NCBI GenBank assembly: GCA_017430675.1
Contig: JAFRMM010000085.1
Coordinates: 1 to 30,891, forward strand
Source: Prevotella sp.
GTDB taxonomy: Bacteria > Bacteroidota > Bacteroidia > Bacteroidales > Bacteroidaceae
Direction of reading: 5' to 3'
Length of the DNA: 30,891 nucleotides
Of this stretch, positions 5,304 to 16,987 are shown in pieces. A model generated the notes under the pieces. The model was not told where the DNA came from. It did not search any database and saw only the letters and a list, made by a program, of their open reading frames with translations. Numbering within the stretch: position 1 is the stretch's first letter; each line of letters opens with the position of its first letter. The position numbers were made by a program, and so were the translations under genes.

Positions 5304-6461
5304 ATGGATTTACGACAGTTTATCATACAGAATTTTGAAGAGTTTCTGACCTATACGGCGTTCGCTAACGCCACCGTCGGAAATCTCATCATGATCGCGG
5401 TGGGAGCCTTTTTCATCTGGCTCGCCATCAAGAAGGACTTCGAACCACTGCTGCTCGTCCCCATCGGACTGGGCATCATCCTCGGTAATATCCCCTTCCG
5501 TGCCGATGCCGGACTGGAAATCGGACTCTACGAAGACAATTCCGTGCTGAATATCTTCTACCAAGGTGTGCGCCAAGGCTGGTATCCGCCGCTGATCTTC
5601 CTTGGTATCGGAGCCATGACCGACTTTACAGCCCTGCTCGCCAATCCCAAACTCATGCTCATCGGAGCCGCAGCGCAGTTTGGTATCTTTGGTGCCTATA
5701 TGGTGGCCTTAGCGATGGGCTTCGAGCCCTCACAGGCAGCCGGTATCGCCATCATCGGTGGTGCTGACGGTCCTACGGCCATCTTCCTCAGTTCGAAACT
5801 CTCGCCCAACCTGATGGGTGCCATTGCCGTATGCGCCTATTCATACATGGCTCTCGTGCCCGTGATCCAGCCGTTCATCATGCGTCTGCTCACCACGAAG
5901 AAGGAGCGCGTCATTAAGATGAAGCCAGGTCGTGAGGTGTCTCAGACGGAGCGTATTCTCTTCCCCATCATCGGACTGTTGCTCACCACGTTCATCGTTC
6001 CCTCGGGCCTACCCCTGCTCGGTATGCTGTTCTTCGGCAACCTGCTCAAAGAGAGCGGCAAGACCACCCGCTTGGCAAAGACTGCTGGTGCAGCCCTCAA
6101 CGATATCGTAGTGATGCTCCTGGGTCTCACCGTAGGTTGTTCGACCCAGGCCAGCGAGTTCCTGACACTGAATACCATCAAGATATTCGCCCTCGGAGCC
6201 ATGGCCTTTATGATCGCCACCGCCTCGGGTGTCTGCTTCGTGAAGGTTATGAACCTCTTCCTGCCTGAAGGTAAGAAGTTGAATCCGCTGATTGGTAATG
6301 CTGGCGTGAGTGCCGTGCCGATGGCAGCGCGCATCTCGAATAACCTCGGACTGGAGTACGACCGTCACAACTTCCTGCTCATGCACGCCATGGGTCCGAA
6401 TGTGGCTGGCGTCATTGGCTCTGCCGTTGCCGCAGGTGCCCTACTGGGCTTCCTTTCATAA
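5304..6461 (+). CDS. Sodium-translocating decarboxylase beta subunit
   Basis: The protein has 385 residues from ATG 5304. An upstream in-frame ATG at 5277 lies inside the 7-bp repeat array and is less likely. It is a polytopic membrane protein with the family motifs GGADGPTAIFLSSKL (the sodium-binding aspartate region), NAGVSAVPMAARISNN and a C-terminal GPNVAGVIGSAVAAG. It decarboxylates carboxybiotin and couples this to sodium export. Length is close to the usual 370-430 for OadB/MmdB. Next to mutA, methylmalonyl-CoA (yielding propionyl-CoA) is the most likely substrate, although beta subunits of oxaloacetate and glutaconyl-CoA decarboxylases look alike. Confidence 0.93.
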   Translation: MDLRQFIIQNFEEFLTYTAFANATVGNLIMIAVGAFFIWLAIKKDFEPLLLVPIGLGIILGNIPFRADAGLEIGLYEDNSVLNIFYQGVRQGWYPPLIFLGIGAMTDFTALLANPKLMLIGAAAQFGIFGAYMVALAMGFEPSQAAGIAIIGGADGPTAIFLSSKLSPNLMGAIAVCAYSYMALVPVIQPFIMRLLTTKKERVIKMKPGREVSQTERILFPIIGLLLTTFIVPSGLPLLGMLFFGNLLKESGKTTRLAKTAGAALNDIVVMLLGLTVGCSTQASEFLTLNTIKIFALGAMAFMIATASGVCFVKVMNLFLPEGKKLNPLIGNAGVSAVPMAARISNNLGLEYDRHNFLLMHAMGPNVAGVIGSAVAAGALLGFLS

Positions 6462-6479: not shown

Positions 6480-6902
6480 GTGAAACATCTGATCCTCCCC
6501 AACGACATCGAGACCATCCCCCGGCTCAATGAGTTCATCGATGGATTCTGCGAAGAAACAGGGATAGGAATGAATGTATGCACGAGTCTGAATTTAGCCA
6601 TTGAGGAGGCCGTTGTCAACGTCATGAACTATGCCTACCCAGAGAAAACGGTTGGACATGTCGATATCGGAATGGAAGCCGACGGGAACAGTCTGACTGT
6701 CGTCATCAGCGATACAGGCAAGCCCTTCGACCCAACCCAAAAAAAGGATGTGGATGTTACCCTCCCTGCTGAACAACGGGAGATTGGTGGTCTGGGCATT
6801 CACCTGATACGCCAGATTATGGACTCCATCGGCTACGAATACACAGATCATAAGAATATACTGACATTAAGAAAGAAACTCAATAAACAAGAAGCATTAT
6901 GA
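6480..6902 (+). CDS. RsbW/SpoIIAB-like anti-sigma ATPase-fold protein
   Basis: The 140-residue protein has a GTG start at 6480, 18 bases after the beta subunit. It is a HATPase_c domain of the serine-kinase type: an N-box LNLAIEEAVVNVMNYAYP (Glu42/43, Asn47, Asn50), a G1 box SDTGKPFDP (Asp78) and a G2 loop GGLGIHLI (103-110). Such proteins hold a partner (usually a sigma factor) until an STAS antagonist displaces it. The STAS gene follows with an ATGA overlap. No phosphatase of the RsbU/SpoIIE type is in the window, and Bacteroidota lack SigB, so the target is unknown. Its position at the end of the decarboxylase operon suggests co-expression. Confidence 0.88.
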   Translation: MKHLILPNDIETIPRLNEFIDGFCEETGIGMNVCTSLNLAIEEAVVNVMNYAYPEKTVGHVDIGMEADGNSLTVVISDTGKPFDPTQKKDVDVTLPAEQREIGGLGIHLIRQIMDSIGYEYTDHKNILTLRKKLNKQEAL

Positions 6903-7204
6903 TTATTATTACTGAAGAGAACGATGGGTTAAGGGCCACTTTTAAAGGACGTCTCGATACCCCCGCTGCCGTCAAAGCACAGCAGGAGATTGCGCCCCTG
7001 CTGGAGAATGCCGACAAAACAATTATCCTGGACTGCACGAACCTGGATTATATCAGCAGTTCTGGTCTGCGACTGTTTCTGACACTCCGTAAGGAGGCAG
7101 GAGCCAAGGGAGGTCAGGTGATTATTGAGAACATCAATGAGGATATCCGTAAGATATTTATGATGACAGGTTTCTTCAATCTGTTTGATATCAAGAATGC
7201 ATAA
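6899..7204 (+). CDS. STAS-domain anti-anti-sigma factor (RsbV/SpoIIAA-like)
   Basis: The protein is a 101-residue single STAS domain. The start ATG (6899) overlaps the previous stop in ATGA, implying translational coupling at equal amounts. The phospho-switch motif is LDYISSSGLRLFL, with Ser55 just before the glycine, the position phosphorylated by the kinase partner in SpoIIAA. With the 6480 gene it makes a minimal partner-switching pair without a visible phosphatase. Confidence 0.9.
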   Translation: MIIITEENDGLRATFKGRLDTPAAVKAQQEIAPLLENADKTIILDCTNLDYISSSGLRLFLTLRKEAGAKGGQVIIENINEDIRKIFMMTGFFNLFDIKNA

Positions 7205-7802
7205 CAGCGAAGCACAAAGACCCAGGATTGCCATCATCGACCCCAACACCCTTTCGGCGCTGGGGTTGAAGAGTATCCTCCAAAACGTCATACCCATCAT
7301 GACGGTCGATATCTATGGCTCGTTTTCTGAGTTGTCGGCCAATGGCCCAGACGGCTATTTCCACTATTTCACGTCAATGAATGTCGTGCTGGAGAACATG
7401 GCATTCTTTCAGGAACGACGACGGAAAACCATCGTCCTGACGCTGTCACTCGACACGATGTCGCAACTTTCCGACTTCCATTGCCTGTGCACAAATGTCC
7501 CCGAGAACGAGTTGGTGCGCTCCATCCTTTCCCTCCAGCAATATGCCCACGGCCATGGGGAGCACCTGCCGCCGATGCCCGCTATCCTGAAGCAGAAGAT
7601 CCTCACCGACCGCGAGATCGAGGTGATGTCGCTAATTGTACAGGGTTATATCAATAAGGAGGTCGCCGATAAACTGAATATCAGCCTATCGACAGTTATC
7701 ACCCACCGCAAGAACATCATGGAGAAACTCGGCATGAAGAGTGTCTCCGCCCTCACCATCTACGCTGTCATGCACGGCTACGTTGATATCAACAAAATTT
7801 AA
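7197..7802 (+). CDS. LuxR/NarL-type regulator with a degenerate receiver-like N-terminus
   Basis: The protein has 201 residues from ATG 7197, overlapping the STAS gene by 8 bases. The C-terminus is a LuxR/FixJ HTH (LTDREIEVMSLIVQGYINKE then KLNISLSTVITHRKNIMEKL). The N-terminus begins like a receiver (RIAIIDPNTLSALGLKSIL), but no acidic phospho-acceptor is visible where one would expect it (around HYFTSMNVVLE), so it is probably not phosphorylated. Its HTH and the tail LTIYAVMHGYVDI match the HTH of the convergent hemerythrin regulator at 7829-8791 closely, so the two likely share ancestry and perhaps operator sequences. A shared hairpin terminator separates them. Confidence 0.87.
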   Translation: MHNSEAQRPRIAIIDPNTLSALGLKSILQNVIPIMTVDIYGSFSELSANGPDGYFHYFTSMNVVLENMAFFQERRRKTIVLTLSLDTMSQLSDFHCLCTNVPENELVRSILSLQQYAHGHGEHLPPMPAILKQKILTDREIEVMSLIVQGYINKEVADKLNISLSTVITHRKNIMEKLGMKSVSALTIYAVMHGYVDINKI

Positions 7803-7828: not shown

Positions 7829-8791
7829 TTATAGTTTTACACTGGAGATGTCCACCAGACCGTTGACAATGGCATAGATCGTCAGACCCGCAGGGGAATG
7901 GATCTGCAGTTTACGGGCGATATTGCGACGATGGGTAATAACGGTGTTCGTGGAGATACAGAGATGATCGGCTATCTCCTTGTTTGACATGCCCTGTACC
8001 AGAGAGACTATCACATCTTTCTCACGGTCGGAAAGAGCATCGGGATTCTGGGCGACACTACTCTTGAACACCATATCCGAGATATTCCTCGTCACGTCAC
8101 TCTGCTTGGCCATCTGCTCCAGACGGCGGATGGCGGGCACGAAGATGTGATCCTCAACCTGCGCATGCTGGCGCAGCCATGCCTCATTGTCGTAGATGTC
8201 GTGAAGTGTGGCTGTCAGTTGGTTGTTATGGAGTCCGTCCTGCGGCAGATACTTGATAATCAACAATTTGAGTTCACGCAGTTTTTTGTCGGCAGCACCA
8301 TGGTGCTTCGAGAAGGTTTCCACGTTATAGTCGCTGGCAGGACGGCCTTCCAATAATGATTGTACGTAGGGGAAGAGTGTCTTCTGCTCATACTTCATGT
8401 GACGGCGTATCTCGTGGGCATACTCATCGTAAAAGCGGAGAATGAGCCGAGCCAGCGAGTCGTCTTCATTGAGCGACTCTGCCAGTTCACGACGGATGAA
8501 GGGCAACTGGAAGTCAAGAAAATAAGCATGACTCGCCTCGAGATAGTGGAGCAGTGTAGGCACATCAAGTGCCTCGTCAGCCTCAAACTCTCCATACCCG
8601 TTGATGGAATAGTTCACCACAGCCAAGAAAGTATAGGTATCTACCTGATTATCCTCACAAGTCTCCTTGACGGTCTTGTCGCCAAAGCCGAGACTGATGC
8701 CGAAACCTCCTAATGACTGCAACAGGTCGTAATTATCGCGGATGAGGGATATCATCTTGTCGTCCGCCTCATACATCTTCTGATTCTTCAT
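7829..8791 (-). CDS. Hemerythrin-LuxR fusion transcription factor with degenerate DUF542 N-terminus
   Basis: The 320-residue protein has three parts. Residues 15-60 resemble the DUF542/ScdA_N domain of RIC proteins, but the CC pair is replaced by Leu-Gly (FGISLGFGDKT). Residues 80-225 form a hemerythrin-like helical bundle in which all six di-iron ligands of E. coli YtfE have counterparts: His88, His131/Glu135, His163 or His164, His209/Glu213. Residues 252-320 form a LuxR HTH (LSDREKDVIVSLVQGMSNKE) with the tail LTIYAIVNGLVDI shared with the 7197-7802 regulator. Hemerythrin domains sense or handle oxygen, nitric oxide or iron, so an iron- or redox-responsive DNA-binding protein is a reasonable inference. 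It is divergent from the porin/imelysin/di-haem operon, its likely target. Confidence 0.9.
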   Translation of the reverse strand: MKNQKMYEADDKMISLIRDNYDLLQSLGGFGISLGFGDKTVKETCEDNQVDTYTFLAVVNYSINGYGEFEADEALDVPTLLHYLEASHAYFLDFQLPFIRRELAESLNEDDSLARLILRFYDEYAHEIRRHMKYEQKTLFPYVQSLLEGRPASDYNVETFSKHHGAADKKLRELKLLIIKYLPQDGLHNNQLTATLHDIYDNEAWLRQHAQVEDHIFVPAIRRLEQMAKQSDVTRNISDMVFKSSVAQNPDALSDREKDVIVSLVQGMSNKEIADHLCISTNTVITHRRNIARKLQIHSPAGLTIYAIVNGLVDISSVKL

Positions 8792-8800
8792 CGTCGTATG

Positions 8801-8934
8801 CTACCTAATAATGATTACCGGGTGCAAAATTAGGCATATTTTCCGAGATGTGCAATAATCACAATTAGGTATTTTCACTGTCGTCATCCCCTCAATTAAC
8901 CCCTTTTTGGCCGATTTCACCATTTTTAGGTATT
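8801..8934. promoter_or_regulatory. Cluster of four TTAGG(T/C)A boxes, candidate operators
   Basis: TTAGGCAT occurs at 8830-8837, TTAGGTAT at 8865-8872 and TTAGGTAT at 8926-8933 on the plus strand, and TTAGGTA on the minus strand at 8802-8808. They sit respectively on the regulator's -7 element, just upstream of its -33 element, on the -33 element of the porin promoter, and in the regulator's leader. The reverse complement TACCTAA matches six of seven positions of the TACYYMT heptamer recognised by NarL-type HTH proteins. Binding by the hemerythrin-LuxR protein is inference. Confidence 0.5.
8825..8855 (-). promoter_or_regulatory. Promoter of the hemerythrin-LuxR gene
   Basis: On the minus strand TTG (8855-8853) is followed after exactly 20 bases by TAATTTTG (8832-8825), a good Bacteroidota -33/-7 pair. 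The start codon at 8791 is 33 bases downstream. The TTAGGCAT box starting at 8830 overlaps the -7 element. Confidence 0.7.
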
Positions 8935-8963
8935 GGTGATGAACCCGATTAGACCTACCTTTG
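8933..8963 (+). promoter_or_regulatory. Promoter of the porin/imelysin/di-haem operon
   Basis: TTG at 8933-8935 and TACCTTTG at 8956-8963 are 20 bases apart, a close match to the Bacteroidota -33/-7 pattern. The TTAGGTATTGG box at 8926-8936 covers the -33 element. Confidence 0.7.
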
Positions 8964-8988
8964 CACCCGAATTGATAATAAAAGTAAT

Positions 8989-10236
8989 ATGAGAAGACTA
9001 TTCAGTTTATTGACAAGTATTATTATAATAAGTAACGCACACGCGCAACTGACCGTCGGCGGATATGGTGAGGTAGCCTATAGCCGCAATTTCTACAGTG
9101 ATCACGTGAGCCGCTATAGTCAGCCCGAACAGCATAAGGACGACCCCAGTCACGGACGCTTCGACATCCCCCACGCTGTAGGCTATTTAGGCTACGACTT
9201 CGGCAAAGGCTGGTCAGTGGGTACGGAGATTGAGTTTGAACATGGTGGTATAGGCAGCGCCTATGAGAAGGAAGACGAAGAAGGCGGTGAATGGGAACAG
9301 GAGACCGAGAAAGGCGGAGAGGTGGAACTGGAGCAGTTCTGGATCCAGAAGAGTTTCGGCAAGGCCGCCAACCTGCGCTTCGGACATATCGTCGTACCCG
9401 TGGGTCTGAACAATGCCCACCATGAGCCACTGAACTTCTTCACCGTCTATCGTCCTGAGGGCGAGAACACCATCCTGCCCAGCACATGGCACCAGACGGG
9501 TCTGTCGTTCTGGGGGCGCTACAAGGACTTCCGTTATGAGGCACAGTTCCTGGCTGGACTGAATGCCGACAACTTCACCAACACAGGCTGGATCAACAAA
9601 GGTCCTGGCTCACCGTTAGAGTTTGAGGTGGCCAACAAATACGGTGTGGCCCTGCGTCTGGACAACTATTCCATCCCTGGCCTACGCATCGGACTGAGCG
9701 GTTACTATGGCGAGAGCATCGGCAACAGTTATCCCAAGAATGCCAACGGCGTGGATGCCGAGTACAAGGGACAGGTGCTGGTAGGTGCCCTGGACTTCAC
9801 CTATAAGGGTCACAACTGGATCGTTCGCGGACAGGCTGACTACGGCTATCTGGGCGATGCGGAGCAACTGAAATACGTGTATAACCGCCTGAACTCGAAG
9901 TCACCCTACAAGCACTCGGCCTTCGTGAGCAAGAACGCCTATGCCGTAGGTGTGGAGGCTGGCTACGATGTGTTCTCGCAAATTAAGAGCCTGCGCGACA
10001 AGGAACAGGAACTATACGTGTTTGGACGTTATGAGCAGTACAACCCCTACGCCAGCGACACCAAGGGTACAGCCTACGACTATACAGCCGTAAAACGTCT
10101 GGCTGTGGGTGTGAACTATCACCCCCTGCCACAGATCGTCATCAAGGTCGAATACTCGAACCGTTTCCTGAAGGACATCTACAACAACGAGCCTTCCGTG
10201 AACATCGGCGTGGCGTATGAGGGATTCTTCTTATAA
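8989..10236 (+). CDS. Outer-membrane porin-like beta-barrel protein
   Basis: The 415-residue protein has a clear signal peptide ending in NAHA before QLTVGGYGEV. The mature part alternates aromatic and polar residues as in outer-membrane beta-strands and ends FLKDIYNN...GVAYEGFFL with a C-terminal aromatic region. It includes a run of Glu-rich sequence (residues about 88-110, EKEDEEGGEWEQETEKGGE) in an apparent loop, which could bind cations. It resembles the phosphate-selective porin/OprP-like or maltoporin-like barrels of Bacteroidota but no subfamily can be fixed by eye. It is first in the operon, so it probably admits the substrate (perhaps a metal complex) used by the two lipoproteins encoded after it. 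Confidence 0.8.
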   Translation: MRRLFSLLTSIIIISNAHAQLTVGGYGEVAYSRNFYSDHVSRYSQPEQHKDDPSHGRFDIPHAVGYLGYDFGKGWSVGTEIEFEHGGIGSAYEKEDEEGGEWEQETEKGGEVELEQFWIQKSFGKAANLRFGHIVVPVGLNNAHHEPLNFFTVYRPEGENTILPSTWHQTGLSFWGRYKDFRYEAQFLAGLNADNFTNTGWINKGPGSPLEFEVANKYGVALRLDNYSIPGLRIGLSGYYGESIGNSYPKNANGVDAEYKGQVLVGALDFTYKGHNWIVRGQADYGYLGDAEQLKYVYNRLNSKSPYKHSAFVSKNAYAVGVEAGYDVFSQIKSLRDKEQELYVFGRYEQYNPYASDTKGTAYDYTAVKRLAVGVNYHPLPQIVIKVEYSNRFLKDIYNNEPSVNIGVAYEGFFL

Positions 10237-10260
10237 AGGTAAAAAGGTAAAAAGGTAAAA
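10237..10260 (+). repeat. Intergenic tandem repeat, 8-bp period, three units
   Basis: Three identical copies of AGGTAAAA follow directly after the porin stop codon and precede the imelysin gene at 10279. Confidence 0.85.
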
Positions 10261-10278
10261 CAATAAATAAAAACGACA

Positions 10279-11601
10279 ATGAACAAGAAATTTATTTTCT
10301 CCATGGCGCTCCTGATGGGCGCGCTGACCTTCACATCATGCAGCAGCGATGATGACAAGAAAGACAATAGCAGTGACACCTCATTCGACCTCGTGACAAC
10401 CACACCGATCGTCGATGAGGACAACTATGCAGCCAACACCTCGAACTACGACAACAAGGCCTTCGGGCAGACGGCCATCGATGCTTGCGGAGATCTCGAG
10501 GACGAACTGACCGCCGCCAACTCACTGATTGCCACTGCACAGTTGACGGAGGCCCAGGAGACCTATCTGCGGGAGGTCCTGAAGAATCTGGTGAACAACG
10601 TGATCGTGCCCACCTACACCAGTCTCGCCAACGAGACGGAGAAGTTGGAGCAGACACTGAACGGTCTGACCACCTCGACCATCACCCAGGCACAGATTAA
10701 CGCTGCCTGTGAGGACTTCAAGGAAGCCCGTAAATACTGGGAGCGCTCTGAGGCTTTCCTGATGGGTGCCGCCTCGGATTTCGATGTTGATCCCACCATC
10801 GACTCATGGCCGCTGAACCGTTCTCTGCTGTTGAGTTACTTCAACAACGGCATGGACGACGAGATGCTCGACGATGCCACTATCCTCGGTTTCCATGCCC
10901 TGGAGTTTATCCTCTTCCGCGACGGACAGCCCCGTAAGGTGGCTGAGTTGCAGACCAACGACACCTATAAGAACTTCGAGAAGATTACAGGTGCCCAGGA
11001 ACTGGCCTACGCCCAGACTATCTGCACCCTGCTGAAGCAGCGCACCTTCCAACTGCAGTGCGCCTGGGACAATGGTGCCAACACTAATCGCCTGGCCGTC
11101 GTGAAGGCTGCAGGTCTCGACTACCAGACGGAGAAAGGTCTGTCGTACGGCGACAACCTGATCAATGCTGGCGTCAGTGGCAGCAACAGCACCTTCCCCA
11201 CCCTGAAAGCCGCCATCGCACAGGTGCTCTCCGACGATGTGGGCAGTTGTCTGGCTATCTGCGGTGAGGTGGGAACGGCCAAGATCGCCAACCCCTTCTC
11301 GGCAGGTGACGTGTCGTACGTGGAGTCGCCGTACAGTTACAACTCCATCGCAGACTTCCGCGACAATATCCGTTCCATCCGTAACATCTGGCTGGGATCC
11401 ACGGATAAGACTGCCAACAAGTACAGTTTCCACACGTTCTTTGCCAGCGTGAAGAACGAGAATGTGAACAAGAGTGTGGAGAATGGGTACGTCAGCGCCA
11501 TCGAGGGCATCAGCAACATGCCGTCGCCCTTCGTGAAGTACTGCTGCACCATCTGGAACATTGCTTTTGAGGACGATGAAGACTGGGACGTAGAAGAATA
11601 A
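10279..11601 (+). CDS. Imelysin (peptidase M75 family) lipoprotein
   Basis: The 440-residue protein carries a lipoprotein signal (LTFTSC, Cys21) followed by an Asp-rich linker. The imelysin domain fills the rest. The signature GxHxxE appears as GFHALE at residues 204-209 (His206, Glu209), and EARKYWERSEAFLMGAAS is the typical earlier helix. Despite the peptidase label, imelysin and the related EfeO M75 domain are linked to iron uptake rather than proteolysis. It is placed directly before a di-haem oxidoreductase with a 3-base gap, an association also known in proteobacterial imelysin loci. Likely periplasmic or surface-exposed and iron-linked; the actual ligand is unproven. Confidence 0.92.
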   Translation: MNKKFIFSMALLMGALTFTSCSSDDDKKDNSSDTSFDLVTTTPIVDEDNYAANTSNYDNKAFGQTAIDACGDLEDELTAANSLIATAQLTEAQETYLREVLKNLVNNVIVPTYTSLANETEKLEQTLNGLTTSTITQAQINAACEDFKEARKYWERSEAFLMGAASDFDVDPTIDSWPLNRSLLLSYFNNGMDDEMLDDATILGFHALEFILFRDGQPRKVAELQTNDTYKNFEKITGAQELAYAQTICTLLKQRTFQLQCAWDNGANTNRLAVVKAAGLDYQTEKGLSYGDNLINAGVSGSNSTFPTLKAAIAQVLSDDVGSCLAICGEVGTAKIANPFSAGDVSYVESPYSYNSIADFRDNIRSIRNIWLGSTDKTANKYSFHTFFASVKNENVNKSVENGYVSAIEGISNMPSPFVKYCCTIWNIAFEDDEDWDVEE

Positions 11602-11604
11602 TAT

Positions 11605-13365
11605 ATGACAAGTTATCGTAATATTTTAAGAATGGTACTGGCAGGGCTCTTAGTAGCGCCTGCCTTTACCGCTTGTTCGGACAACGATGATCCGAACGAA
11701 CTGGGACCGTTGGTACCCGAGGAGCAAGCCTTCGGAAAGGCCAACGACGTGTTCAGCGCCGAGGAGTGGTATCCTGGCGGTGAGTTAGGAACAACGGAGA
11801 AAGCCAGTTACTCGGCACCCACCCCTGCAGTGGAGCAGATTGCAGACATGGAGAGCGACTTCCAAACGGGTGAGGACTTCTTCGAACATCTCTATACCTT
11901 CGACGTGGCACCGCGTAAGGGTCTTGGCCCCGCCTGGGTACGCAACAGTTGCATCGCCTGTCACCCCAGTTACGGCCACGGCAAGCGACAGACGGAGTAC
12001 CGTGCCAACACCATCGGCAACGGCTACCTGCTCGTCATCTATCACCCTGACAACAACGCCTATATCTCTGAGGTGACAGGTATGCCGCAGACGGCTGCCA
12101 TGACACCTTTTAAGGCCCCCATCGACGAGAATCAGATCCAGATAGAGTGGAAGACCGTCACGGAGATGGAGAGCGGACTGGCGATGGCCTTCCCTGACAA
12201 CGGCGAGCGCTATGAACTGATCTATCCTGAGGTGCGCATCCCTCAGACAGCCTTCAACACCAATCCCAAACCCGAGAACTACGAGGTGCGCCTGGAATCC
12301 ACCATCGGCATCTACGGCACTGGTCTGCTCGACGCCCTCGACGATGAGGAGATCGAGAGGCAGTGGGCTGCTGAGGCACCTTACGTGGAACTGAATCCCG
12401 CCATGTGGGATAAGGAGGCTAACACTTTCAAGGAGACGGCCTATTACAGCGCGCCCTATAACGACACAGGCACACACCGTGGCAGCCACGGACCACTGAA
12501 GCGCTTCACCTACGCCATGACGCGTGGTTCGCTGCAGGACGGCGCTGGCGCCAACGCCATCTGGAACATCACCAACGTGACGCGCTCCGACCGTCACTGG
12601 CTCTATACCACCACGGCATGGGCTAAGGCCCAGAGCGAGGACCAGGAGGTGATCGACTATATCAAGGAACATGGAGAGCCCTCAATGAGCATCCTGCACC
12701 CCTACTATGCCGATGGTACGGATGAGGGCATCTCTGCCCGTATCTACGAGGTGCTGAACACACCCTCCGTCGCCTTTGCGGAGACCTTCGAGAAATACCT
12801 GCTCAACGATCCCTACTACAATGGTGAGGAGGAGATGAGCGACAAGCAGTACTACCAGTTCATGGTGTGGCACCGTGGTCTGGCCGTGCCCGCCGCCCGT
12901 AACCTGAACGACGACGACGTGAAGCGTGGCAAGACGCTCTTCACGGAGTTGGGCTGCGCCCAGTGCCACCGTCCATCGTGGAAGACAGGCTCTGACAATA
13001 TGTGGGTGGATGCCAGCATCAAGGCCTACGCCCAGTCTGTTGGCAAGGATTACAAACAGATGCTGCCCAAGTATGCCAACCAGACCATCTGGCCCTACAC
13101 GGATATGGTGCAGCACCGTCTGTTCATGAAGAACGATATCCGTACGGGCTGGTGCCGCACGACGCCCCTCTGGGGACGTGGCCTCTCCCGTCAACTGACA
13201 GGTGCCGACGACCGTCTGCACGACTGTCGCGCCCGTACTCTCATCGAGGCCATCATGTGGCATGGCTACTCCAAGGAGTCGGATGCCTATCGCGCCACGG
13301 AAAAGTTCTACAACCTCCCCAAGGCCGACCGCGATGCCATCGTGAGATTCCTGGAATCGATATAA
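11605..13365 (+). CDS. Di-haem c-type oxidoreductase lipoprotein (DHOR, DUF1111/PF06537 type)
   Basis: The 586-residue protein has a lipobox (APAFTAC, Cys24). Two c-type haem sites are visible: CIACH at 116-120 and CAQCH at 451-455. The family context is clear around them (GLGPAWVRNS before the first, CRTTPLWGRGLSRQL and EAIMWHGYSKES near the end, ending AIVRFLES). Relatives are called thiol oxidoreductase or MauG-like di-haem peroxidases. With imelysin it could oxidise or reduce a metal at the cell surface, similar in logic to the haem peroxidase EfeB beside EfeO. Both haems need a cytochrome c maturation system; a fragment-like relative of one is encoded next. Cysteine and histidine spacing is intact, so it should be functional. 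Confidence 0.92.
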   Translation: MTSYRNILRMVLAGLLVAPAFTACSDNDDPNELGPLVPEEQAFGKANDVFSAEEWYPGGELGTTEKASYSAPTPAVEQIADMESDFQTGEDFFEHLYTFDVAPRKGLGPAWVRNSCIACHPSYGHGKRQTEYRANTIGNGYLLVIYHPDNNAYISEVTGMPQTAAMTPFKAPIDENQIQIEWKTVTEMESGLAMAFPDNGERYELIYPEVRIPQTAFNTNPKPENYEVRLESTIGIYGTGLLDALDDEEIERQWAAEAPYVELNPAMWDKEANTFKETAYYSAPYNDTGTHRGSHGPLKRFTYAMTRGSLQDGAGANAIWNITNVTRSDRHWLYTTTAWAKAQSEDQEVIDYIKEHGEPSMSILHPYYADGTDEGISARIYEVLNTPSVAFAETFEKYLLNDPYYNGEEEMSDKQYYQFMVWHRGLAVPAARNLNDDDVKRGKTLFTELGCAQCHRPSWKTGSDNMWVDASIKAYAQSVGKDYKQMLPKYANQTIWPYTDMVQHRLFMKNDIRTGWCRTTPLWGRGLSRQLTGADDRLHDCRARTLIEAIMWHGYSKESDAYRATEKFYNLPKADRDAIVRFLESI

Positions 13366-13368
13366 ACC

Positions 13369-13935
13369 ATGAGACTACACTTAATAAGCCGTTTTACACT
13401 ACTGGCCCTGCTTCTTTCAGCAGGGTCAGTTGCCGTTAAAGCCATCCCCAAGACCATTCCCCAGGCACAGGCAGCCCACTTCTGCCAACTGCTCATCAAC
13501 GACGACGGGAAGATCTATCCGCTGAGTTACCAGGCGCATCACCTCCTGACACCCAGTGACAGCCTCACTGTCGAACAACTGTTCATGACATTCATCTTCC
13601 ACGACGACAACTGGCAGGTGTTGCGCCTATTCCCCCATACGGCCGACGATGGTGCCGTCAACTGGTATGCCCCTATCGATGTCCTGCCCACCTCACTCGG
13701 TACGGAGCATCAGAAATACATCCGTGAGGTGCTCCCCCGTCTGCAACGCGAGGTCATGGCCGGGAACTGGCCCGTGGTCGATGACTGCATCGACAAGATG
13801 ATCCGATACCAATGTAAATACGGTGGCCAAAGTGCCCAGACATCGTCGTTTCCCACCTATTTATTCTATGTCTTCGTAGTTTTCCTGGTGTTTGCAGTCT
13901 TCATTTACTTGCATAAAGTACCCACTCATGATTAA
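13369..13935 (+). CDS. Stand-alone CcsA/ResB-like periplasmic domain with one C-terminal membrane helix
   Basis: The 188-residue protein starts 3 bases after the di-haem gene. A signal peptide covers about residues 1-25. Residues 36-152 (HFCQLLINDDGKIYPLSYQA, LTVEQLFMTFIFHDDNW, AGNWPVVDDCIDKMIRYQCK) recall, from memory of the family, the extracytoplasmic region of the large ResB-CcsA fusion that matures c-type cytochromes in Bacteroidota. A single helix at about 163-181 ends the protein, and the haem-handling WWD membrane domain is absent. Either it is a trimmed paralogue serving the di-haem protein, or the gene lost its 3' half. The sequence downstream is non-coding. The tidy ending with a membrane anchor favours a genuine short protein, but the homology is my reading, not an alignment. 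Confidence 0.6.
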   Translation: MRLHLISRFTLLALLLSAGSVAVKAIPKTIPQAQAAHFCQLLINDDGKIYPLSYQAHHLLTPSDSLTVEQLFMTFIFHDDNWQVLRLFPHTADDGAVNWYAPIDVLPTSLGTEHQKYIREVLPRLQREVMAGNWPVVDDCIDKMIRYQCKYGGQSAQTSSFPTYLFYVFVVFLVFAVFIYLHKVPTHD

Positions 13936-13992: not shown

Positions 13993-14333
13993 CTGAGGGT
14001 GTCAGGGTGTACAAATGCCGATGTACAGGGCTTATGCACCCTCTTGAGCAGGGTGTCAGGGTGTACAGAGGGTGTACTGGCTGTAGTAGGCATATCACTT
14101 TAGACGCACCATGCAAGGCCCTGCGCCTGAAAAGCACTGACTTTTCGCTGAATTCTCTCGAGAATTGGAACAAAAAGCAGTGCTTTAGCATCGTCAGGAG
14201 CCACTAGACGGTCAAATTCTCGAGAGAATTGAATCACAAGAATACATGTACACCCTCTGTACACCCTCGCACCCTACAAAACAGGGTGCCATCGCCTGTG
14301 TTTATAGGCATTTGTACACCCTGACACCCTCAG
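13993..14333. repeat. Nested inverted-repeat element with AGGGTGT motifs (gene-free)
   Basis: The outer arms 13993-14019 and 14307-14333 are perfect 27-base inverted copies. Inside them 14058-14077 and 14248-14267 are perfect 20-base inverted copies, and 14151-14166 and 14215-14230 are perfect 16-base inverted copies of AATTCTCTCGAGAATT. A further 9-base pair (14131-14139 with 14178-14186) surrounds the left central copy. An 18-base direct repeat (13996-14013 and 14050-14067) doubles the AGGGTGTCAGGGTGT motif. AGGGTGT or its complement occurs about nine times in all. No convincing gene lies in 13936-14469. The element could be a MITE-like mobile remnant, a genome-wide repeat, or a transcribed structured RNA; no clear target-site duplication is visible. 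Confidence 0.85.
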
Positions 14334-14427
14334 ACAACGTTTGAAGCCTTACTATGATATCATCGACTTTCACAAGACTTGCGAACCTGTTTTTGGGGGT
14401 CGAATTGCGTTAATCTTCCATAATCCG

Positions 14428-14458
14428 TTGTTCTTTACAACCTTTTTTCGTATCTTTG
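14428..14458 (+). promoter_or_regulatory. Promoter of the metal permease gene
   Basis: TTG at 14428-14430 and TATCTTTG at 14451-14458 are 20 bases apart and match the Bacteroidota -33/-7 pattern. The position fixes the start at ATG 14470 and excludes the 43 in-frame codons upstream. Confidence 0.7.
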
Positions 14459-14469
14459 CAAATAGTTAT

Positions 14470-15756
14470 ATGGACCTACAGAGTTTTTTCACATCGCTCT
14501 TGAACGTGGTTTGCGAGATGGCTCCCTACTTGCTTTTGGGATTCCTGATCGCAGGAGTGCTGCATGTGTTTGTACCACAGAAGTTCTATGCCAATTATCT
14601 GTCGCGCAAAAACAGGCTGTCCGTGCTTTGGGCGGCGCTGCTCGGCGTGCCCCTGCCGCTGTGTTCGTGCGGCGTGATTCCAACGGCCATCGGTCTCAGG
14701 AATGAGAAAGCGTCGAAGGGGGCTATTGCCTCGTTTCTCATTGCCACGCCACAGACGGGCATCGACTCCATCCTGGCCACCTTCTCGCTGATGGGACTGG
14801 GCTTTGCCATCATCCGTCCCGTAGCAGCGCTCATTACAGGTATCTGCGGCGGATTGCTGGTCAACCGTCTGGTACGTGAGGATAACATGACGGCTGAACC
14901 CAACGCCTCATGCCAGATGGAGCGAGGCAACAGGATTTGGCGAGTGCTGAAATACGCCTACTATGACATGATTCGCGACATCGGTCTGCGACTGCTTATC
15001 GGACTTATTGTGGCGGCATTGATTCAGGTAGCAGTGCCCGATGAGTTCTTCCTTTCCTTCGGCAGTCAGCCGCTGTTGCAGATGCTGGTTATCCTGGTCA
15101 TTGCCGTGCCGATGTATATCTGCTCTACGGGTAGCATTCCTGTGGCTGCGGCACTAATGATGAAGGGGCTCTCGCCGGGAGCGGCACTGGTGATGCTGAT
15201 GGCTGGACCAGCGGTCAATCTGGCCTCCATCCTCGTGGTTCACAAAGCGATGGGACGGCGTTTCACTTCGATTTATCTGATGACCATCGTGGGCTTTGCC
15301 GTCCTCTTCGGCCTACTGCTGAATGCCGCCGAACAATTATCAATTGTCAATTATCCATTGTCAATTAACGACGCTTGCTGCATGAACGCCGCCGCCCTGC
15401 CCAGCCCGTTCAAACTGATATGCGCCACAGTATTAACACTACTAATCATATTTGCTCTTATGATGAAACTATTCAGCATGTTTACTGCCAAGAAACCGTC
15501 AGACCCCGATGTGACGGTCTATAGGGTCGAGGATATGCATTGCAGCCATTGCGAGGCAGCCGTCGTCCGTGCCGTTGAGGAGGTGCCCGGCGTTGAGAAA
15601 GCCAAGGCCAGTGCCTCGGCCAATACCCTCACCATCAAAGGCTCCGCTACGGAAGAAGCCATCCGCACGGCAGTCGAAGGGATTGGCTATACGTTCAAGG
15701 GACGGAGCAGCGAGAGTCATCATACTCGCTTGCGCTCGACCTCTGAAAACAAATAA
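14470..15756 (+). CDS. SO_0444-type Cu/Zn efflux permease with C-terminal HMA domain
   Basis: The protein has 428 residues from ATG 14470. Membrane segments run from residue 12 onward, with the family motif PLPLCSCGVIPTAIGL (Cys65, Cys67) and the paired copy MYICSTGSIPVAAAL in the second half, as in DUF318-type permeases. A last membrane helix near 315-335 leads to a heavy-metal-associated domain (about residues 345-415) with the metal-binding MHCSHC (Cys358, Cys361). Likely role: export of copper, zinc or a similar thiophilic metal, the HMA domain delivering or sensing it. Residues 289-300 are encoded by a 7-bp-period tandem repeat (15334-15368) sitting in frame in the loop before the last helix. 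It has its own promoter and follows the inverted-repeat element. Confidence 0.87.
   Translation: MDLQSFFTSLLNVVCEMAPYLLLGFLIAGVLHVFVPQKFYANYLSRKNRLSVLWAALLGVPLPLCSCGVIPTAIGLRNEKASKGAIASFLIATPQTGIDSILATFSLMGLGFAIIRPVAALITGICGGLLVNRLVREDNMTAEPNASCQMERGNRIWRVLKYAYYDMIRDIGLRLLIGLIVAALIQVAVPDEFFLSFGSQPLLQMLVILVIAVPMYICSTGSIPVAAALMMKGLSPGAALVMLMAGPAVNLASILVVHKAMGRRFTSIYLMTIVGFAVLFGLLLNAAEQLSIVNYPLSINDACCMNAAALPSPFKLICATVLTLLIIFALMMKLFSMFTAKKPSDPDVTVYRVEDMHCSHCEAAVVRAVEEVPGVEKAKASASANTLTIKGSATEEAIRTAVEGIGYTFKGRSSESHHTRLRSTSENK
15334..15368 (+). repeat. 7-bp-period tandem repeat inside the permease gene
   Basis: Five units, CAATTAT, CAATTGT, CAATTAT, CCATTGT and CAATTAA, follow each other exactly. 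They are translated in frame as residues 289-300 (QLSIVNYPLSIN). Other repeats of this period in the window lie between genes. Confidence 0.9.
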
Positions 15757-15790
15757 AAAGAGTATCCTTCGCACTTTTATTGGCGATTTT

Positions 15791-15821
15791 TTGGTTTTTC
15801 ACTCATTTATTCGTAACTTTG
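15791..15821 (+). promoter_or_regulatory. Promoter of the Rid-family/FMN-binding gene pair
   Basis: TTG at 15791-15793 and TAACTTTG at 15814-15821 are 20 bases apart. The ATG at 15842 follows 20 bases after the -7 box. Confidence 0.7.
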
Positions 15822-15841
15822 CGCCCCAAAAGGAACAAACA

Positions 15842-16987
15842 ATGAACGAACAACTCTTTCACATAGCATTTGAGAACGCATCCGCCGACGTGTCGTGCTT
15901 CGACAATGGCACGGAGGTAAAGGAGTATCATGCCATGATCCATGTGGATGCCAAACGGCTCCCCTACTCCCAGCAGTTAGAGGCCGTCCTCAGTGCATAC
16001 AACCAACTGATCGAAGGTCCATTGAAGGGGGCTCAGGCCGTATTCAAGCGCTACTTCCTCAGCGATGCTGCTAATCAGGCAGATGAAGTCATCCTCTCCG
16101 ATGTTACAGACTGCGCCAAGAGCATTATTGAACAGGCACCCCTCGACGGCTCGAAGATCGCCCTCTGGTGCTACCTGATGACGGGTGTGCAGACAGGTGT
16201 CAGCAAGAGCGGACTCTACGAGGTGAAGCACGGCACATACCGTCACCTCTGGAACGGCTCTGCCCACAATATGGCCGCCAACTCGGAATACCAGACGCGT
16301 CTGCTCTTCAATGAATATAATATGCAACTGCTTGAAGAGGGCTGTACGCTGGAGGCTAACTGCATCCGCACGTGGCTTTTTGTCAATGACATCGACCTGA
16401 ACTATGGCGGTGTGGTGCGTGCCCGCAACCAGTTCTTCTTCACCCAAGGCCTAACCGTACACACCCATTTCATCGCCTCCACAGGCATCGGTGGCCGTCA
16501 GCAGGATCCCAACGTGCTCTGTCAGATGGATAATTACGCCATCGCTGGCATCCAGAAGGAGCAGATCCATTACCTCTACGCCCCCACTCACCTGAACCGT
16601 ACCAGTGACTACGGTGTCAGTTTCGAGCGTGGCACGTATATCGACTATGCCGACCGTCGCCATGTGCTGATCTCAGGTACCGCCAGCATCAACAACAAGG
16701 GCGAGATCATGTACCCGAAGGACATCGTGAAGCAGACCCGCCGTATGTGGGAGAATGTCGAGGCACTGCTCGCAGAGGCCGGGTGTACTTACGACGATGT
16801 GTGTGAGATGGTGGTCTATCTCCGCGACCTGGCAGACTATGAACTGGTGAAAGAGATGTACGAAGAACGATTCTCCGACAAGCCCTACGTCATCGTACAG
16901 GCTCCCGTATGTCGCCCAGGCTGGCTCGTAGAGATGGAATGTATGGCTGTGAAAAAGATGGATAACCCGGAATATGAAGCGTTTTAA
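15842..16987 (+). CDS. Rid (YjgF/YER057c/UK114) family protein, large two-domain form
   Basis: The protein has 381 residues from ATG 15842; upstream in-frame sequence is excluded because it precedes the promoter. The C-terminal third (about 250-370) is a Rid domain: QTRRMWENVEALLAEAGCTYDDVCEMVVYL, then VQAPVCRPGWLVEMECMAV with Arg358 at the position of the catalytic arginine of RidA. The N-terminal 240 residues form a second, more divergent related domain, as in chorismatase-like (FkbO/Hyg5) and large bacterial Rid proteins. Typical Rid enzymes hydrolyse reactive enamine/imine intermediates, but the long forms vary and the substrate cannot be predicted. The FMN-binding gene overlaps its end by 14 bases. 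Confidence 0.82.
   Translation: MNEQLFHIAFENASADVSCFDNGTEVKEYHAMIHVDAKRLPYSQQLEAVLSAYNQLIEGPLKGAQAVFKRYFLSDAANQADEVILSDVTDCAKSIIEQAPLDGSKIALWCYLMTGVQTGVSKSGLYEVKHGTYRHLWNGSAHNMAANSEYQTRLLFNEYNMQLLEEGCTLEANCIRTWLFVNDIDLNYGGVVRARNQFFFTQGLTVHTHFIASTGIGGRQQDPNVLCQMDNYAIAGIQKEQIHYLYAPTHLNRTSDYGVSFERGTYIDYADRRHVLISGTASINNKGEIMYPKDIVKQTRRMWENVEALLAEAGCTYDDVCEMVVYLRDLADYELVKEMYEERFSDKPYVIVQAPVCRPGWLVEMECMAVKKMDNPEYEAF

Follow-up and report, generated by a model that had tools for sequence, protein, structure and literature searches.

A fused hemerythrin-LuxR regulator of Prevotella and the porin-imelysin-oxidoreductase operon that diverges from it carry one operator-like sequence at their facing promoters, and the same sequence recurs before a putative iron regulon elsewhere in the genus. 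The locus occupies positions 7829 to 13935 of a 30,891-nt stretch of DNA from Prevotella sp. (assembly GCA_017430675.1, contig JAFRMM010000085.1), referred to in its full length as the window. We propose, with a probability of about 0.64, that an autoregulated, CdhR-type, hemerythrin-based iron-starvation regulator controls a surface iron system built on imelysin and the di-haem protein DHOR. The new link on which this proposal stands is a sequence that the fused regulator has in common with the operon beside it and with the candidate iron regulon.

One operator-like site at two predicted divergent promoters

The initial annotation had described a regulator with a complete di-iron ligand set and a LuxR-type helix-turn-helix (HTH), divergent from four tightly spaced genes, and both parts of this description hold. 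All five open reading frames (ORFs) were recovered exactly in an ORF check, with intergenic gaps of 42, 3 and 3 nt inside the operon. The regulator (320 aa, minus strand, 7829-8791) combines a hemerythrin (HHE) domain (PF01814, E-value 9.6e-14) with a GerE/LuxR HTH (PF00196, 1.6e-17; residues 252-307). On the plus strand follow the genes for an outer-membrane porin (415 aa, 8989-10236), an imelysin (M75) lipoprotein (440 aa, 10279-11601), a DHOR/DUF1111 di-haem lipoprotein (586 aa, 11605-13365) and a small protein of 188 aa (13369-13935).

Alignment of 63 regulator-porin intergenic regions revealed a near-invariant TTTTTAGGTATTG upstream of TACCTTTGCA, and a dyad, AATACC-N8-GGTATTG, is found at both the regulator and the operon promoters, 20 nt before the -7 box. 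In the window, the predicted regulator promoter (minus strand, 8824-8873) reads AATACC (8873-8868), N8, ATTATTG (8859-8853), N20 and TAATTTTGC (8832-8824), and the predicted operon promoter (plus strand, 8915-8964) consists of TAGGTATTG (8927-8935), a 20-nt spacer and the -7 box TACCTTTGC (8956-8964). These two score 11/13 and 9/13 in a scan of the window, in which only one further place, inside a coding region at 5643, scores at least 8. The strict pattern is present in 54 of the 63 regions, 52 times with the 20-nt spacer. The spacing score on the porin side is partly circular, because the porin promoter helped to define the -7 box; on the regulator side, where this applies less, the dyad reaches 8.58/13 with a spacer of 20, whereas 18 other spacers give 2.80-4.67 (55 of the 63 regions could be scored). 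That both divergent promoters carry one operator-like dyad with rigid geometry, 20 nt before the -7 box, is a new observation.

The geometry extends beyond this locus. With spacers of 10-26 nt allowed, the gapped pattern matched 33 times, in 9 of 10 genomes and always at 20 nt, and a reversed control gave 0 matches; a slightly shorter pattern of right half and -7 box, searched over the same range, gave 261 matches, spread over 100 of the 120 genus genomes searched, versus 4 for the reversed control, the spacing being exactly 20 nt in 143 of the 150 matches listed (hand count). The second half-site becomes apparent when the 22 non-porin sites of the ten-genome search are combined into a consensus, the whole being approximately AAcACc-N8-GGTATT, and inverted TACC-N8-GGTA halves can be seen in loci L115 and L124 and at regulator promoters as well. 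Directly upstream of the regulator gene, the site occurs in L131, L133 and L150, and in genome G131 it precedes a split HHE operon. Among 149 Bacteroidales genomes drawn order-wide, the pattern search returned 47 hits in 33 genomes, 21 at 20 nt and 5 of these in G001 (hand count), and was too noisy to serve for a co-occurrence test.

The direction of control is the point at which an alternative survives best. Where a promoter has a good -7 box, the site lies over its -33 region, a position that fits repression as well as activation and in this respect counts against our proposal; the regulator might thus be a repressor that is released at low iron. However, CdhR has been described as activating hmu (Wu 2009, as related in the accessible part of PMC10101095), and we consider a repressor somewhat unlikely.

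The candidate regulon and its proposed regulator

Targets were assigned at 30 site loci from the 33-match set and 30 from the 261-match set. The porin operon accounts for 8 and 7 of these, flavodoxin/DUF2023 genes for 8 and 8, and genes for S-adenosylmethionine (SAM)-methyltransferases, TetR regulators and HMA proteins for 2 and 1 each; a TonB receptor lies downstream in 2 and 8 loci (with a distant or uncertain start in L144 and L145), and the regulator itself in 0 and 2, in addition to a second site in L131. In 22/30 and 27/30 loci, the site stands before gene classes that belong to a published low-iron stimulon (Lewis and Gui, 2023; PMC10434189, here as elsewhere according to its accessible text). 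In that study of three species, low iron strongly induced flavodoxin/DUF2023 genes in every one of them and induced TetR operons in each as well; SAM-methyltransferases responded in P. gingivalis and B. thetaiotaomicron, whereas a similar locus was not reported for P. intermedia. For the HMA genes (three more site loci), no counterpart was found in the stimulon as described there. The genus-wide set of sites before flavodoxin/DUF2023, TetR, SAM-methyltransferase and TonB genes and the regulator itself is new, and defines a candidate regulon.

The six di-iron ligands of the regulator (H88, H131, E135, H164, H209 and E213) are invariant in 65/65 aligned proteins (64 loci and the window), as is C45. 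This ligand set presumably resembles that of YtfE. All 32 matches in a PDB sequence search fall within the C-terminal HTH part. With a complete di-iron HHE domain and a LuxR HTH in one protein, the regulator appears to be a CdhR-type, hemerythrin-based one-component regulator, presumably dimeric. HHE matches occur in 103 of the 149 Bacteroidales genomes; among the entries listed, a gene for an HHE protein of about 240 aa adjoins one for a LuxR protein of about 205 aa in many genomes, and the fused form is found in at least G001, G028, G152, G089, G149 and G035. This pattern agrees with the separate PG1236-PG1237 and BT0519-BT0520 genes and the fused P. intermedia gene (PMC10434189, the last according to a figure legend). 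As a separate observation, a Fur-family match lies directly beside an HHE-LuxR gene at G174:C1:355213-356619.

The nearest named HHE family is that of the iron-sulphur repair proteins RIC/YtfE/ScdA. The regulator matches its model, TIGR03652, at 1.4e-11 and 44.6 bits, far under the cut-off of 204.7, and differs from the family by its fused DNA-binding domain; the split HHE protein of L111 is likewise under the cut-off (2e-15). Homologues are named "regulator of cell morphogenesis and NO signaling" by one source, and induction in colitis has been reported as well (PMC10434189). The HHE domain might therefore sense nitric oxide (NO) or O2 instead of iron, in which case the regulon would answer host or nitrosative stress and low-iron induction would be indirect. 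Against this, which we regard as unlikely, stand the targets, whose genes (flavodoxin, TonB, imelysin) serve iron economy and uptake, and the published induction by iron depletion itself.

Gene order also links regulator and operon. Of 416 confirmed matches, 80 genome contigs were kept, with DHORs up to 86% identical to that of the window; records of Prevotella and Prevotellaceae come closest, and the name Prevotella is also attached to several close homologues of the regulator. The regulator is divergent from and adjoins the porin gene in 62 of these 80 loci, which is more than chance would give. Of the other 18, three have no porin match, five contigs start at the porin, and ten have upstream DNA and no divergent regulator, although L030 offers only 603 bases there and L058 and L066 carry the regulator behind the operon; the site is kept before the porin in six of the ten. 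A separate draw of 120 genus genomes contained the regulator in 106, DHOR in 85 and both in 84, and in 48 of these 84 regulator and operon are divergent neighbours within 7 kb, a further new observation (1 is linked otherwise, 7 lie farther apart on one contig and 28 on different contigs). HHE was detected in 84/85 genomes with DHOR versus 22/35 without it (Fisher, 1.9e-7).

Order-wide, DHOR was found in 13 of 149 genomes. In the loci mapped there (12 DHOR genomes other than G001, plus L129, whose DHOR is under the threshold), porin-imelysin-DHOR is kept in 13/13 and a full CcsBA match in 10 (not in L111, L125 and L129). The regulator is split and divergent in the distant G030, fused at the other end in G028, split at the other end in G115 and about 11.5 kb from the porin in G130; in the rest, it did not appear in the stretch fetched.

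Sites are also more numerous where the regulator is present. Genus genomes with HHE contain a mean of 2.35 sites versus 0.86 in those without (Mann-Whitney, p = 0.0007), and any site at all is found in 92/106 versus 8/14 (Fisher, 0.013). The 22 genomes with HHE and no DHOR have a mean of 2.45 sites, with at least one in 16, and the regulon thus does not require the operon.

Several observations weigh against our proposal. These association tests ignore phylogeny, and the genomes and loci are related, so that the counts are not independent events; sites still occur in 8 of the 14 genus genomes in which no HHE gene was detected, although these may be incomplete assemblies, and incomplete assemblies could account for part of the association between site and HHE. 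At the level of the order the association is weak (HHE in 12/14 genomes with a 20-nt site, counted by hand, versus 103/149 overall), G121 has a site before flavodoxin and no HHE match at 1e-12, and G036 has a site and no HHE. The strict site is missing at 9 of 63 porin promoters and in 4 of the 10 loci that have upstream DNA but lack the divergent regulator, and its left half is degenerate at the porin promoter. Of the 49 stimulon-class sites, 10 precede TonB receptors, a weak class of target because such genes are common, and 8 of the 60 site loci are unassigned or odd (L081, L084, L090, L093 with a barrel, L095 with DUF3089, L100 with enolase, L134 and L160). Finally, Fur-family matches in 26/26 genomes tested mean that another iron regulator exists.

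The site might accordingly be bound by such a regulator, with the HHE-LuxR gene merely one of its targets. Candidates are a Fur-family protein, to which the 26 genomes and the HHE-free genomes with sites lend weight, and a paralogue, the 205-aa LuxR protein encoded convergently with the regulator (plus strand, 7185-7802; Pfam). In length and HTH type it equals the LuxR protein that accompanies a separate HHE gene in other genomes, which makes it a candidate second CdhR-like regulator, and a homologue lies in the flank of 16/80 loci. However, the other 64 show none, the flank being short in some, sites are more numerous where HHE is present, and the site faces the regulator gene itself with the same geometry. 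Moreover, TACC-N8-GGTA would have the 7-2-7 geometry of NarL-type (GerE) sites and appears unlike a Fur box. Binding by a different regulator is hence unlikely in our judgement, and control by the adjacent di-iron protein, as the initial annotation had it, gains support from the common site.

The predicted surface proteins and a reduced haem lyase

The outer-membrane barrel, the imelysin lipoprotein with its GFHALE motif and the lipoprotein with two CxxCH motifs were all correctly recognised in the initial annotation. Neither the porin nor the 188-aa protein matched a family in the Pfam search, and the PDB sequence search gave no matches for DHOR or the porin. The porin model, a beta-barrel (pLDDT 75.9; residues 86-108 below 50), resembles general porins (Foldseek probability 1.00, query TM 0.47-0.57 among the 50 matches shown), and an alignment of 36 porins shows an invariant run of glutamates (E93, E98, E101, E103, E105, E107, E111 and E115) as well as invariant H145 and H168; such an acidic porin would suit cations. 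The imelysin is well above the cut-off of PF09375 (132.1 versus 23.5 bits; 3.9e-38), and GxHxxE is kept in 77/78 loci, the exception being the 378-residue match of L002. It aligns in swapped order to the B. ovatus crystal structures 3n8u/3oyv, which represent a circularly permuted imelysin (PMC3143127, accessible part), and is therefore of the canonical form. DHOR matches PF06537 (112.4 bits versus a cut-off of 22; 2.6e-32) over profile positions 331-499 of 499; its CIACH is placed at residue 116 and its CAQCH at 451, and two CxxCH are found in 81/81 DHORs (80 loci and the window).

Acidic residues after the lipobox cysteine are a surface export signal. At least two acidic residues among the six following this cysteine are present in 68/78 imelysins and 69/80 DHORs. 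The pattern used was rough and took some starts wrongly, but such residues would be consistent with both proteins being exported to the surface. In keeping with an exported imelysin, the signal peptide of BT_2479 has been used to export colicins from Bacteroides (PMC13192842, accessible part).

The last gene required a correction, as the "CcsA-like" domain of the initial annotation is the middle domain of CcsBA only. The 188-aa protein has a signal-like N-terminus and a C-terminal membrane-type helix and lacks the ResB and WWD parts, so that it is neither an intact CcsA nor a CcsBA haem lyase; its model (pLDDT 69.6) has CcsBA 7s9z as top Foldseek match, not significant at E 1.4. ResB and Cytochrom_C_asm/WWD are absent from other short forms too and present in the full-length form: at the same place in L018, a full-length CcsBA matches the system II haem lyase of H. 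hepaticus (PDB 7s9y/7s9z) at 8.8e-97. Sorted by hand, with patterns that overlook the middle domain or the WWD part of some long CcsBA proteins, the gene after DHOR in the 80 loci is a short middle-only form in 33, a ResB+WWD form without the middle (369-395 aa; L032, L035, L040, L062, L065, L067 and L078) in 7, a long CcsBA (628-804 aa) in 27, a long CcsBA running off the contig end in 2, something else in 7 and not found in 4. The pattern class of the short form has 34 members, of which L070, with 682 aa, is not counted among the 33. The middle-less form is the complement of the short gene of the window, and a dedicated haem lyase has thus been reduced in two complementary ways.

A pseudogene is unlikely, given the 33 middle-only loci and a median dN/dS of 0.142 (37 usable of 78 pairs, 13 sequences), which indicates moderate purifying selection; the medians for imelysin, DHOR and porin are 0.095, 0.065 and 0.032. 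Loss of all haem lyases is mostly not the case either: PF01578 was found in 41 of the 46 genomes tested from the 80 loci and in 24/29 middle-only genomes, the five without it (L002, L009, L021, L031 and L051) all being middle-only and possibly incomplete assemblies. The second CcsA-type gene of those 24 genomes could mature DHOR, and the kept middle domain may present apo-DHOR or haem to such a separate protein.

The operon might instead serve peroxide protection or thiol/redox chemistry and contribute nothing to iron uptake, as the Pfam description of DHOR as a putative peroxidase and the poorly understood biochemistry of imelysin (PMC3143127) would allow. This is improbable, since low iron induces the matching locus of B. 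thetaiotaomicron 63-324x (PMC10434189) and the P. aeruginosa imelysin-DUF1111 operon is under Fur control (PMC3143127, each in its accessible part).

Further genes and elements surround the locus. Beside the regulator, HATPase_c_2, STAS and 205-aa LuxR genes overlap in series (6480-7802) and are kept together in several loci; the first two are presumably an RsbW/RsbV-like partner-switching pair. Between the operon and an ArsP gene lies a near-perfect long hairpin (13993-14333; minimum free energy -180 kcal/mol, z -14.4), parts of which, mainly an end unit some 79 bp long, are found again in 9/120 genus genomes. The repeats form opposite-facing pairs, 420-455 bp (G209) or about 2.4 kb apart (G209:C79, G255:C70), and make up a family of MITE-like elements; in L162, a 704-aa VapE/BT4734-like protein is encoded within the version of 2.4 kb. 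The ArsP_1 permease with a C-terminal HMA domain (14341-15756) scores above the threshold for SO_0444, a family of Cu/Zn efflux proteins. As a sign of a copper system, it was left out, because it sits behind the hairpin and only L009 among the 80 mapped loci has ArsP near the operon. A RutC-like gene with weak similarity to FkbO/Hyg5 chorismatases (15569-16987) is also found in L001 (12334-13473) and L129; in L001 it shares 4 nt with a 193-aa gene, and in L129 it stands next to the HHE-LuxR pair, so that it is possibly a member of the system.

Known relatives and an iron-starvation model

The locus is not undescribed, as had been supposed. B. thetaiotaomicron BT2473-BT2482 comprises a porin, a thiol oxidoreductase (equated here with DHOR by name and order only), a peptidase M75 (imelysin) and CcsA and responds with strong induction to low iron and in colitis; the HHE/cdhR operon is induced by low iron too (Lewis and Gui, 2023; PMC10434189, accessible text). 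However, the regulator in that locus is the HTH protein BT2482 and the HHE pair BT0519-BT0520 lies elsewhere, whereas the fused HHE-LuxR gene of Prevotella is adjacent, and CcsA there contrasts with a CcsBA middle domain here. CdhR/PG1236-PG1237 and BT0519-BT0520 likewise join an HHE domain to a DNA-binding regulator, in separate genes, and low-iron induction is documented for them; a DNA site and a regulon are what is proposed here in addition. The words "motif" and "binding site" are absent from the main text of PMC10434189, and searches of the openly licensed literature found no paper on hemerythrin plus LuxR in Porphyromonas or Bacteroides, on imelysin combinations or on a DUF2023 regulon, while a printed CdhR site may exist. 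The system-level idea of the initial annotation was thus close, with both halves already published as low-iron genes; its choice of iron is backed by the published induction, and copper finds no support either way.

EfeUOB also places an M75 domain beside an extracytoplasmic haem protein, but neither an EfeU permease nor a cupredoxin-M75 EfeO is among the operon proteins (Pfam). A site that appears unlike a Fur box, the porin and the CcsBA-derived gene distinguish the Prevotella locus from another relative. This is P. aeruginosa PA4370-4373, which has an imelysin GxHxxE protein and a DUF1111-type haem protein and is iron-regulated by Fur (Xu 2011, PMC3143127, accessible part).

We infer the following course of events. 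The cluster would be the local part of an iron-starvation regulon, in which the YtfE/RIC-like di-iron domain would read intracellular iron, or its oxidation or nitrosylation. The NarL-type HTH would bind the dyad AATACC-N8-GGTATT(G), which ends 20 nt before the -7 box and reaches with its inner edge into the -33 region. In this way the protein would control the promoter of its own gene, the porin-imelysin-DHOR operon on the other strand and, farther away, flavodoxin/DUF2023, TetR, SAM-methyltransferase, HMA and TonB receptor genes. An empty di-iron site would switch the regulon on, the protein acting as an activator like the published CdhR on hmu. At the surface, iron would be handled by the acidic, His-bearing porin, an iron-binding imelysin lipoprotein and the di-haem DHOR, which would change the redox state of iron, with the 188-aa protein as a chaperone-like remnant of a dedicated CcsBA haem lyase.

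Knowledge of iron-regulatory mechanisms in Bacteroidales is scarce, and CdhR is not shown to bind iron, according to the accessible text of PMC10434189. For iron sensing in anaerobic gut and oral Bacteroidales, the fused regulator, its exact operator-like site and its divergent neighbour offer a testable case. A bolder version, possible and put forward tentatively, is that HHE-LuxR is a direct iron sensor and a one-component transcription factor that chiefly governs iron starvation in Prevotella, Fur playing a smaller part. It would work by analogy with FBXL5 and plant BRUTUS (the latter in PMC12022348, accessible part), whose hemerythrin domain is proposed or shown to sense iron, although these are ubiquitin ligases and not DNA-binding proteins. 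If true, the regulator would be a bacterial counterpart of the hemerythrin iron sensors of animals and plants.

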